DNA from: a virus
Direction: 5' to 3' (one strand)
Virus record (IMG/VR): IMGVR_UViG_3300005747_000205
Span: 1 to 24,993 of that record
Length of the DNA: 24,993 bases
Part shown: positions 19,284 to 23,447 of the stretch, one piece after another
How the letters are laid out: every line of letters begins with the position of its first letter
How positions within the stretch are numbered: position 1 is the stretch's first letter
Notes under the pieces: model-generated
Told to the model about the DNA's origin: nothing
Database searches by the model: none
Seen by the model: the letters and a program-made list of their open reading frames with translations, nothing else
Made by a program: the position numbers and the translations under genes

Positions 19284-19295
19284 TATTCTCTTAAG

Positions 19296-19329
19296 ACTCC
19301 TATTGTGTGGCCATAATAGGAGTTTTTTT
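19296..19329 (+). terminator. Rho-independent terminator of the late operon
   Basis: ACTCCTATT (19296-19304) pairs perfectly with AATAGGAGT (19315-19323) over a 10-base loop and is followed by an unbroken T run (19323-19329). This is the best terminator in the window and faces the + strand; the opposite strand lacks a T run after the stem. Confidence 0.85.
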
Positions 19330-19400
19330 ATGGCCCGTGTTTTAGCCCTATATTTTAGTATTTGTATAAATAGTAGTGTAAGGTGGCAAACAAACAAAAC

Positions 19401-19429
19401 TTGACATTTAAAACTATTTCTGTTAATAT
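19401..19429 (+). promoter_or_regulatory. Sigma70-type promoter before the 373-residue gene
   Basis: A perfect TTGACA (19401-19406) is followed after exactly 17 bases by TAATAT (19424-19429), with TG one base upstream of the -10 as in extended -10 promoters. It lies between the terminator and the next gene and gives a leader of about 40 bases before the ATG at 19475. Confidence 0.7.
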
Positions 19430-19474
19430 ACAACAGTATCGGCATAGATGTAATACACTAATAAGGAGCTCATT

Positions 19475-20596
19475 ATGTATACACCAAACTTTGATAATCC
19501 CAAAGTTATCAATAGAAGTAAAACAGCACTAGGATTTTGCCTAGGTGTTTTTAGCCAAACAAAACCCAAAGAGTGGAGCACTAGGCACATTGATCAATAC
19601 TTTGGACAAAAACAAAACAATTTAAGCCAATATCTAAGAACACAATTATTGTGTGTTGATGATAATCACTACAACATGGACACTGGCAAGTGTAAAAAGT
19701 ACACACTAAATTATGAAGGTGCAAAACAGTTACACAAAAAATTATTCCCCAACATAGACTTCACACTAAAACGCAAATATGATTTAGTTACACAAAGTGC
19801 GGCTACAAAACATCATGAAGAGTTTGAAACTGGTAATTTTAAATACAATGATAAAAGCAACAGGTATTGGCACCCACTACAAAATCATAACAGTGAAGAA
19901 AGAAAACAAATGTTTGCACAATATGGCTACTGTCACATATACGACATAAAAGCATGTGCTCCAACGTTGATCACACACCTAGCAGAAGCACTAGCACCTA
20001 AGCAAACTATTACTGTTAAACGCATGAGCAAAACATTTGACTATCTGTTGTGCAATATGAATCAATTTAGAAGTGAACTTGCACATGATATTGGTATCGA
20101 CGTAACTGATGCCAAGCGAATAATAAACAGTTTGTTTGCTGGAGCCAAATTGGCTTGTAATCCAGACACTGCAATTTTTAAACTGTTAAACTGTGATTAT
20201 GATAAAATGCATTTGCTACAACAACATCCACGATTGTGTGAATTAAGATCTGCAATTACCACTGCATGGTCAATTATTGCTCGAGGTGAAATAAGCGGAG
20301 AACCTGTTATATTCAAGAGAACTAATCAACGCATAAACAGTAAACACAAATGGGCAGTGTATTTTAAATATGAAAGAGCTATCATAAGCATAGTGATTGA
20401 ATACCTAAATGCTAGACGTATCAAGTATTTTATAGAACATGATGGTTGGAGTTGTAATCAACGCATAAACCTAATAGAATTGGAGAACATAATAAGAAAG
20501 AAAACAGACATAAACAGATTAAAATTAGACTATAACTTTTGTTCTACCAGCACTGACGTGCTAGTAGAGAAAGAGTCAAGCACTGACGTGCTTTGA
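19475..20596 (+). CDS. Unknown protein with possible polymerase-palm-like motifs (putative replication protein)
   Basis: This 373-residue protein starts after AAGGAG (about 19463-19468) and has its own promoter. Residues 1-95 look like a winged-helix DNA-binding domain (WSTRHIDQYFGQKQNNLSQY). Then come three spaced elements that recall polymerase palm motifs: HIYDIKACAPTLITHL (154-169, Asp157) like motif A, DAKRIINSLFAGAKL (212-226) like the K-x3-N-x2-(Y/F)-G helix of family A polymerases, and KYFIEHDGW (317-325, His322-Asp323) like the HD of motif C. It is far shorter than known replicative polymerases and has no visible exonuclease. The match is a reading by eye and weak; a replication initiator or a protein of unrelated fold is possible. 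The last residues carry a doubled STDVL, made by a DNA repeat. Confidence 0.6.
   Translation: MYTPNFDNPKVINRSKTALGFCLGVFSQTKPKEWSTRHIDQYFGQKQNNLSQYLRTQLLCVDDNHYNMDTGKCKKYTLNYEGAKQLHKKLFPNIDFTLKRKYDLVTQSAATKHHEEFETGNFKYNDKSNRYWHPLQNHNSEERKQMFAQYGYCHIYDIKACAPTLITHLAEALAPKQTITVKRMSKTFDYLLCNMNQFRSELAHDIGIDVTDAKRIINSLFAGAKLACNPDTAIFKLLNCDYDKMHLLQQHPRLCELRSAITTAWSIIARGEISGEPVIFKRTNQRINSKHKWAVYFKYERAIISIVIEYLNARRIKYFIEHDGWSCNQRINLIELENIIRKKTDINRLKLDYNFCSTSTDVLVEKESSTDVL
20549..20592 (+). repeat. Two copies of a 14-bp self-complementary repeat at the end of a gene
   Basis: AGCACTGACGTGCT occurs at 20549-20562 and 20579-20592, 30 bases apart and in frame, giving the repeated STDVL at the protein's C-terminus. 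Each copy is itself a hairpin (AGCAC/GTGCT with TGAC loop). The second copy is the core of the terminator described next. Confidence 0.85.
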
Positions 20597-20649: not shown

Positions 20650-20674
20650 ATAGTGTATTACCATAGTGTATTAC
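20650..20674. repeat. Tandem 12-bp direct repeat (possible operator)
   Basis: ATAGTGTATTAC is present twice, at 20650-20661 and 20663-20674, separated by one base (13-base period). It sits between the candidate promoter and the ATG at 20729, where a regulator could bind. Period and length would also suit iterons, but only two copies are seen. Confidence 0.6.
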
Positions 20675-22160: not shown

Positions 22161-22754
22161 ATGAAAGACACACAAAAGAAACCTGGTAAAAGAGGCCAAC
22201 CACATAAACTTGAAAATGTAAGTCAGTTTTATATTGACAAGTTCAACAGCATGTTAGAAACACAACCCAACGGATGTGTATACTTTAAAGGCAATGTTCA
22301 AAACAGTGGATACTGCAATTATTGGTATAGATACACAGATAAACAAACTGGGGAACCTGTGTTAAGATTCATCACAGCACATAGATTTGCGGCACTAATC
22401 AGCGGCAAGTTTGATATTGATAAATTTAATCAGTTGTGTGTGTTACATCATTGTGATAGTAACTATGCTAACAATGATATCACATATAGACAGTGTGTAT
22501 GCGAAGATCACCTTTGGTTAGGTAGTGCTAAAGACAATATACAAGACTGTATAAAGAAAGGTAGATACATTAAGCCACCAACACATTATGGTGCAGACAA
22601 TCACAACGCTAGACTAACTGAAGAACAAGCACAATGGGTAATTGAAAATCATTACCAAATCCCACAAAGAAAAATAGCAAAAATCCTAAATGTAAATACC
22701 TCCACTATTGAAGCAATACACTCAAATAAAACTTGGTGTCACTTACCAAGATGA
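22161..22754 (+). CDS. HNH-family endonuclease with C-terminal helix-turn-helix
   Basis: This 197-residue protein matches phage HNH endonucleases: GCVYFKG (38-44), an AHRFAALISG helix (73-82), the site VLHHCD (94-99), CVCEDHLWLGSAKDN (112-126) and the trailing KKGR. The second half, NARLTEEQAQWVIENHY then QRKIAKILNVNTSTIEAIH, is a DNA-binding helix-turn-helix. In the usual form the centre reads C-x-N-P-x-H-L; here the Asn is replaced by Cys (C114), and an insertion lengthens the loop between C98 and C112. Weak activity or unusual metal binding is possible. GGAG precedes a three-codon mini-frame (ATG AAG ATA TGA, 22153-22164) overlapping the start. It is probably a freestanding homing-type endonuclease. 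Confidence 0.75.
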   Translation: MKDTQKKPGKRGQPHKLENVSQFYIDKFNSMLETQPNGCVYFKGNVQNSGYCNYWYRYTDKQTGEPVLRFITAHRFAALISGKFDIDKFNQLCVLHHCDSNYANNDITYRQCVCEDHLWLGSAKDNIQDCIKKGRYIKPPTHYGADNHNARLTEEQAQWVIENHYQIPQRKIAKILNVNTSTIEAIHSNKTWCHLPR

Positions 22755-22945
22755 GTGCGGCACGAGATATGAACGATGTCAGAGATATTATTATACAGTG
22801 GGAAAAAGGCTTTGATAGTGAAGAAGACAAAATGTTCTTTTACTTGAAACATGCTGACACACTACACTCAGAGTATTGGGACTTGTTGCCAATGGATGGG
22901 CAATTAAAAATAAAAGAACATCCATGGGATAGATATGATGACTAA
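22751..22945 (+). CDS. Small acidic hypothetical protein between HNH genes
   Basis: The ATG at 22751 overlaps the previous stop (ATGA), so I prefer it to the GTG-side extension. The 64-residue product is acidic, with DMNDVRDIIIQWEKG, SEEDKMFFYLKHADTLHSEY and a Trp-rich end (PWDRYDD). Its end overlaps the following gene by eleven bases. Tight coupling on both sides suggests it is expressed with the HNH genes. Function unknown. Confidence 0.5.
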   Translation: MSAARDMNDVRDIIIQWEKGFDSEEDKMFFYLKHADTLHSEYWDLLPMDGQLKIKEHPWDRYDD

Positions 22946-23447
22946 AAAATACACTAGAAAAATAAAACCAATAACACAAAAAGATGTGGATAGATTCTGG
23001 AGCCATGTTGATATACAGGGTGAAGATGATTGTTGGCAATGGAAGTTAACTCCCAGTGACCATGGATATGGATTATTTGCCGCTGGTGGTTTGATATTGC
23101 GAACAACACGTTTTGCATACATACACGGTGACGGCTTATACACCAAAGAGATTACTGGTAAAATGAGAATAGCCACTAGTTGCAGAAATAAAATGTGTTG
23201 CAATCCTAAACACATGAGACTGAACAGTCAACAAGAAGTGTTTGATAGAATGAGAGCCGCAGGACAAATTAGTTTTGGTTCTGATTGTAAGCAAAGCAAA
23301 CTCACAGAAGCTGATGTACTAGATATAAGAGCACGTTATGTTAAGAGAAGTTTGGTAGATGGATTAGCACCAATTGGTGCAGACTATGGTGTAACACAAG
23401 GCTGTATCAGAGATATCATTATACGCAAGACTTGGACACACGTTTGA
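22935..23447 (+). CDS. Second HNH-family protein, first catalytic His absent
   Basis: This 170-residue protein has DDCWQWKLTPSDHGYG (31-46), the C-x-N-P-x-H core (MCCNPKHM, 87-94) and a C-terminal helix-turn-helix (about 120-168, SKLTEADVLDIRARY ... YGVTQGCIRDII ending KTWTHV) found in phage HNH proteins. Where the family has the first His in 'v-x-H-x-C' this protein has T81 in IATSCRN, so the general-base His is missing. It may be a dead or regulatory paralogue of the first HNH gene, or a DNA-binding partner. ATGs at 22935 and 22938 are both possible. Its stop overlaps the likely start of the large terminase. Confidence 0.6.
   Translation: MMTKKYTRKIKPITQKDVDRFWSHVDIQGEDDCWQWKLTPSDHGYGLFAAGGLILRTTRFAYIHGDGLYTKEITGKMRIATSCRNKMCCNPKHMRLNSQQEVFDRMRAAGQISFGSDCKQSKLTEADVLDIRARYVKRSLVDGLAPIGADYGVTQGCIRDIIIRKTWTHV

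Follow-up and report, generated by a model that had tools for sequence, protein, structure and literature searches.

The stretch of DNA that was analysed (the window, 24,993 nucleotides) is a virus record in which the portal, the tape-measure and other tail proteins and the large terminase were recognised by annotation. The gene described here comes from a marine virus of bacteria, and encodes a 373-residue protein with an N-terminal winged helix (wHTH) and a polymerase-like palm. The features of the locus are listed below with their positions in the window.

19293-19326, plus strand: intrinsic terminator closing the upstream tail/holin unit, a 15-pair hairpin (-18.1 kcal/mol, z -4.4) and then a T run
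19401-19429, plus strand: putative sigma-70-type promoter, TTGACA-17-TAATAT, in which TG precedes the -10, consensus match 10/12
19450-19460, minus strand: site 1, TAGTGTATTAC, exact 11-mer in what is presumably the 5' UTR, past the promoter and ahead of the ribosome-binding site
19475-20596, plus strand: wHTH-TV-Pol gene, open reading frame of 373 aa, with 68 full-length family members
19475-19744, plus strand: N-terminal winged-helix domain, residues 1-90, H-E-H-H-E-E-H, AlphaFold pLDDT 88.9 when modelled alone
19862-19885, plus strand: R130...P134-L135-Q136-N137, counterpart of the family-A 'TGR...PNLQN', with R130 and Q136 invariant (68/68)
19940-19966, plus strand: motif A YDIKACAPT with D157 (68/68); Ala162 stands where family A has the steric-gate Glu
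20111-20146, plus strand: motif B/fingers helix AKRIINSLFAGA with K214 (68/68), N218 and G223 (66/68), helix 210-221 in the model
20435-20449, plus strand: motif C EHDGW, H322-D323-G324 (each 68/68), beta-hairpin turn with strands 318-321 and 324-327
20549-20592, plus strand: palindromic hairpin of 14 nt (AGCACTGACGTGCT), present in two identical copies within the final codons of the gene, region -21.4 kcal/mol, z -4.2
20651-20661, plus strand: site 2, TAGTGTATTAC, exact 11-mer, 55 nt past the stop codon
20664-20674, plus strand: site 3, TAGTGTATTAC, exact 11-mer, starting 13 bp after the start of site 2

The strong terminator upstream of the gene, which had been proposed in the initial annotation, was confirmed, with TTTTTTT directly 3' of its hairpin (within 19290-19335). 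The proposal that the gene has its own promoter was upheld in part: the sigma-70-like, extended -10 match stands, but the promoter matches in the region, this candidate included, were overall not above chance. The second AGCACTGACGTGCT hairpin may act as a terminator, and an Rfam search of the locus gave no match. An exact 16-nt direct repeat TAATCAACGCATAAAC was also observed inside the gene (20323-20338 and 20455-20470); it encodes NQRIN twice, and the two copies flank the conserved Y296/E300 helix.

As a single query, the 373-aa protein gave no match in Pfam, PHROGs, NCBIfam, the PDB sequences, the phage collection, the plasmids or the first viral scan. Relatives were obtained by using the terminase and then TerS as hooks for sister phages, the corresponding slot of which was screened, and the family was then extended by alignment-based scans to further viral contigs and bacterial genomes; one homologue set came from a pattern search that required at least one of motifs A and C. 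The 67 usable homologues recovered were from uncultured phages and integrative elements, and the conservation counts refer to 68 full-length sequences (median 366 aa). Owing to the retrieval pattern, motifs A and C were partly selected, whereas K214, R130, Q136, R199, W265, Y296 and E300 were not. In the sister phage L113 the orthologue is 48% identical, and cellular relatives were found by alignment-based scan in Legionella, Janthinobacterium, Caballeronia and one further bacterial assembly, three of them close to an integrase or serine recombinase gene; in a search of 299 genomes around the Caballeronia copy, only that copy was found. The sister phages L005, L007 and L008 (terminase 81-83% identical) had no homologue of the protein, so that synteny alone yielded no orthologue, the second subfamily in L006 excepted. 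No motif-matching homologue was found in isolated pelagiphages and a Vibrio phage sharing the terminase. In the L120 gene (from 372), an in-frame stop lies between the invariant Arg and motif B and the homology runs on past it; this copy may be broken, or the stop may be an assembly error.

The AlphaFold model of the protein (7-row alignment) had a pLDDT of 85 and a pTM of 0.76. Its top structural rows by VIA-align were family-A DNA polymerases and mitochondrial RNA polymerase (Z 10-11, residues 97-358), and T7 DNA polymerase was aligned to residues 97-358 with Z 11.2, an rmsd of 4.1 and 233 aligned residues; among the matches listed, all were family-A DNA polymerases or the related RNA polymerase, a list that leaves AEPs possible. 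Foldseek alone gave no match against the PDB at E ≤ 0.001, and the viral-structure matches of the model included virophage replication proteins, Zamilon's among them, and phage proteins that are uncharacterised. The comparison of a predicted structure with palm folds, as proposed in the initial annotation, thereby yielded a confident model with a family-A-type palm. D157 and D323, which had been named as possible metal ligands, do not vary (both 68/68), and from their places on two palm strands of the family-A-superposing model they are predicted to lie close in space. Helices 98-112 and 114-119 precede the palm and are shorter than a standard thumb (the TV-Pol thumb consists of two antiparallel helices). 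No hairpin was resolved in the model around R130, which is invariant and stands before LQN as in family A. Other assignments were rejected: a family-B palm has similar words (D..S.YPS, K...NS.YG), but motif C is HD here and the fold matches family A; reverse transcriptase is contradicted by the lack of YxDD and by weak Foldseek rows; and an unrelated fold carrying the motif words by chance was excluded by the confident family-A palm and the invariant Asp.

The words YDIKACAPTLI (D157), DAKRIINSLFAGAKL (K214, N218) and IEHDGW (D323), pointed out before in this order, were found again within 19475-20596. Residues R130, Q136, Y156, D157, R199, K214, W265, Y296, E300, H322, D323 and G324 are invariant in 68/68 full-length members. 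The invariance suggested for D157, K214/N218 and D323 therefore holds except at position 218, which is N in 57/68 and T in 10; position 162 is Ala in 65/68 and Cys in 3. The motifs of family-A polymerases are TGR..PNLQN, DYSQIE, K..NF...YG and HDE, and the family pattern here, R-x(3)-P-L-Q-N ... YD ... K-x(8)-G ... HD, is that of family-A polymerases. Two positions set the family apart from the family-A DNA polymerases: the steric-gate Glu is replaced by Ala, and the O-helix Tyr by a residue that varies (A, C, Q, N, S).

Profile-profile comparison (hhalign) matched the family with a TV-Pol-like set of four proteins (Polaromonas plasmids, a Desulfovibrio phage and Ma-LMM01) at E 6.3e-21 over 220 columns, and with the second subfamily (L006/L047) at E 5.6e-9. 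The hhalign decoy gave no match, five bacterial-genome PolA domains were not significant by hhalign, and PF00476 matched neither the window protein nor any of 7 members. When a combined profile was run on 150 kb of Ma-LMM01, the best match was gp30 (E 7e-6), which adjoins a transposase and, judging by this neighbour, is probably the TV-Pol reported for Ma-LMM01 by Iyer, Abhiman and Aravind in 2008 (PMC2579912). TV-Pols are described as a family-A core without nuclease, stand-alone or in a protein of 400-600 aa, in mobile elements and viruses, with two catalytic Asp, a beta-hairpin bearing an absolutely conserved template-contact Arg before motif A, and RxxxK in the fingers (PMC2579912). The present protein resembles them in its family-A palm with two conserved catalytic Asp, in its fingers Lys and an invariant Arg before motif A (R130, the putative template-contact residue), in the lack of a nuclease domain (the 373 aa are wHTH and palm only) and in its occurrence in phages and integrase-linked islands. 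It differs from them in the N-terminal winged helix without D5 helicase, whereas a D5 helicase or an all-helical N-domain was reported for TV-Pols, in Ala at D+5, and in the paired DNA sites built into or beside the gene. As for RxxxK, the Lys is K214 (68/68), while no Arg stands at K-4 (position 210, which varies); an invariant R199 stands at K-15, and the Polaromonas and Ma-LMM01 sequences seemingly also lack Arg at K-4.

CCPol, a TV-Pol, is an active polymerase that primes DNA together with MP, and its neighbour in SCCmec is an initiator helicase, which binds to repeats close to the gene that encodes it (PMC7581432). It is like the present protein in having a polymerase domain only, no editing exonuclease and a replication module with repeats by the genes (PMC7581432; PMC10061031), and its catalytic Asp (D169, D324) are at positions comparable to D157 and D323. 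In SCCmec, however, the SSB-like MP is needed for priming and a separate helicase, Cch2, reads the repeats, whereas here the polymerase itself carries the DNA-reading domain; no SSB partner was recognised next to the gene, nor was a counterpart of Cch2, and a 101-aa neighbour is unclassified. The family-A polymerases T7 gp5, Klenow and Taq share the palm, the fingers, the motif order R..LQN / A / B / C and the structural match over 97-358, but the present protein has no exonuclease domains, no steric-gate Glu, only ~370 aa and no significant PolA profile match. Lambda O and the iteron-type Rep proteins are initiators with the origin in their own gene and without a polymerase domain; they too combine a DNA-binding domain with repeated sites that lie within or next to the initiator gene, one of them in the inter-domain linker, and unlike them the present protein has a polymerase domain and two (or three) sites ~0.8 kb apart. 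The protein has most of the TV-Pol features and is not a classical PolA, and it is best classed as a stand-alone TV-Pol that is fused to a wHTH and has a polymerase domain only and no exonuclease. The two options raised before, a very small polymerase and a primase or initiator with a reduced palm, merge into a TV-Pol-type primase-polymerase with a DNA-binding domain.

The second TV-Pol-like subfamily, carried by two other sister phages (L006:5939-7396 and L047:7968-9359, 463-485 aa), has the same motif order (R..QN, YDI, K..N..GA, Y..E, HD) and, in L006, an identical 166-residue Asp-Asp spacing. Its genes are preceded by repeats spaced by ~20 bp with the common core TTTGATATA, together with a common GCATATAGTATAT. 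Genes with the TV-Pol-like motifs GR..LQN, YD[LI]..CH and HDGF were also observed on the Polaromonas plasmids pW9NP1 and pH8NP1 (L140, L141), where one is annotated as 'hypothetical protein' and the other as 'Clp protease N-terminal domain-containing protein', a name that looks wrong. On pW9NP1 the gene lies directly 5' of repA.

The gene is repeatedly found in the interval from the tail/holin end to TerS-TerL, and is often followed by a ~74-aa Cys-containing protein. No match to PolA, PolB, DnaB or D5_N was obtained in any of 20 relatives' contigs (28-40 kb, maybe incomplete), while the control genomes gave matches. In L006, the terminase of which is 83% identical, the slot is filled by the second TV-Pol-like subfamily; since the slot holds other genes in sister phages, the module is swappable, comparable to the swapping of polymerases described for Caudoviricetes (PMC11348598). 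A conserved protein of 114-155 aa ('KHKQYV...VSE.N.....W') was seen in the slot of sister phages (L005:893-1237, L006:5185-5553, L007, L008, L003 and L012); the L006 copy had no Pfam match, and the protein could be an SSB or an SSB-like partner of the L006 polymerase. Two HNH endonuclease genes (22161-22754 and 22935-23447) lie between TerS and TerL in the window, and both are also present in several sister phages.

The winged-helix start noted in the initial annotation was supported by the model of residues 1-90 and by structural rows that were mostly MarR/PadR-type wHTH (Z 3.5-4.1), weak but of one kind. A ~23-bp site with the consensus TATACCCTAGTGTATTACAAGTC occurs at two preferred places of the family genes, the wHTH/polymerase linker and the 3' end; these flanking repeated sites were not part of the initial annotation and are the most informative part of the locus. 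The 11-mer TAGTGTATTAC has three copies in the window, all by the wHTH-TV-Pol gene (~0.03 expected), and is also found within the L120 and L121 family genes. Site 1 is operator-like in position, and the window gene has no copy in its linker. An exact direct repeat of at least 14 nt was found in 41/68 family genes versus 55/345 background windows; for 35 repeat pairs, the linker between wHTH and palm holds one copy and the 3' end the other. By using a position matrix (PWM) built without the own sites of the tested gene, 67 strong sites (PWM at least 18) were recorded in 68 loci, 66 by the gene (29 in the linker, 37 at the 3' end or just after the stop) and one elsewhere in ~387 kb, 255 nt upstream of the L161 gene; no site at PWM at least 12 was found in 26/68 genes, mostly more distant members. 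The two standard sites are ~760-870 bp apart, and in a pattern search of whole contigs CCCTA(G/T)TGTA was rarely found away from the gene. Since some copies are inverted or lie outside coding sequence, the site is a DNA signal and not a conserved peptide. The raw repeat count around the gene in the window was not above background, and only the aligned-site model separated the signal. The site sequence in L119 is CCCTATTGTATATGATCTC, and the reverse complement of the consensus, GACTTGTAATACACTAGGGTATA, resembles a shortened T7 promoter (TAATAC...CACTA..GGG), possibly by coincidence.

Among 38 non-redundant members, site divergence followed wHTH divergence with the palm held constant (partial Mantel r 0.36, p 0.0005) and did not follow palm divergence with the wHTH held constant (r 0.03, p 0.35), in permutations from which shared descent is not fully removed. 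Binding of the site by the wHTH is the natural reading of this co-variation, which supports it.

Other explanations were weighed against these data. It is unlikely that the protein is a minimal elongating PolA, the replicative DNA polymerase of the phage, with a winged helix that merely autoregulates the gene. The family-A fold with intact catalytic residues, the relatives' contigs in which no other polymerase was found and the operator-like position of site 1 would suit such an enzyme, but it would have no 3'-5' exonuclease and a very short thumb region, two or more 3'-end sites are unexplained by autoregulation alone, and a host polymerase can evidently serve, since L005, L007 and L008 do without a homologue despite their closely related terminase. 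Considerably less probable is a selfish cassette, in which the paired sites are recombination or homing ends that move the polymerase segment or the whole gene among phages. The palm-coding segment lies between exact direct repeats of up to 45-78 bp, the gene is missing in close relatives where other genes occupy the slot, and the cellular copies lie near recombinases; moreover, the window is closer to L150 in the wHTH (58%) than in the palm (34%) and to L113 in the palm (51%) than in the wHTH (46%), and such different nearest relatives are the pattern expected from domain shuffling or recombination at the linker. On the other hand, no recombinase was recognised beside the phage copies, the site sequence varies along with the winged helix, the distances of wHTH and palm are correlated (0.73), and in some genes both copies lie past the stop or one is inverted, so that no fixed cassette is enclosed by the sites. 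In part, the cassette idea can be reconciled with the initiator reading given below.

A small single-subunit RNA polymerase with the sites as its promoters is a very improbable reading. T7 RNA polymerase, of the same superfamily, has Gly at the steric-gate position; the family-A/T7 superfamily fold with Ala in place of the steric-gate Glu is in line with such an enzyme, as are the TAATAC, CACTA and GGG that GACTTGTAATACACTAGGGTATA shares with the T7 promoter (a resemblance only), but the sites are at the gene itself and none is ahead of other operons, and the 373 aa contain no promoter-recognition insertions. Slightly less credible still is a palm that has lost catalysis and serves only in DNA binding, as an initiator or repressor. 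Its size, wHTH and sites would fit, and there is a precedent in mobile-element palm proteins, some of which lost the catalytic Asp (PMC10061031), whereas here every metal-ligand and substrate-contact residue is invariant across members that are ~30-50% identical to the window protein.

The preferred reading, with a probability of roughly 0.58, is a compact TV-Pol-type initiator/primase-polymerase, the winged helix of which recognises repeated sites around its own gene. It is favoured by the computed palm and wHTH architecture, the invariant catalytic residues, the TV-Pol-like homology, the restriction of the sites to the own gene and the site-wHTH co-variation; site recognition is supported, while for priming we infer a role from these features. 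The winged helix would bind sites 1-3. Binding at site 1 would repress the own promoter, and sites 2-3 (in relatives, the linker and 3'-end sites) would serve in origin recognition and position the palm there. The two-metal palm (D157/D323) would then make a primer or short strand on locally opened DNA, and the host helicase and polymerase III would extend it. Catalysis, de novo priming, the function of the sites as origin or operator and the handover to the host replisome are thus putative steps. Some observations stand against the initiator reading: by analogy, CCPol primes only with MP and yet no such partner was recognised beside the gene; the spacing of ~760-870 bp between the sites does not resemble a tight iteron array, and 26/68 genes are site-less at PWM at least 12; and the window linker has no site copy and K-4 no Arg.

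Tentatively, and with more doubt than belief, it is proposed that one chain of ~370 aa fuses origin recognition with de novo strand initiation, without a separate primase, initiator helicase or SSB partner. If this is true, the gene would amount to an exchangeable replicon complete in itself, carried by many small phages and integrative elements. As far as its anatomy shows, the protein resembles a primase-polymerase initiator, and a small polymerase-like enzyme with a co-evolving flanking DNA signal suggests a one-protein kit for starting viral DNA replication. The analysis adds a new, large branch of TV-Pol-like enzymes that bear a wHTH and had no annotation; it is absent from Pfam, PHROGs and NCBIfam and has family-wide cognate sites in or around the gene. 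Many small marine and freshwater phages have no recognisable replication gene, and the family provides a candidate replication protein for dozens of them. By the site-wHTH co-variation, priming at a defined origin, long inferred for TV-Pols, becomes testable with one protein and a short DNA.
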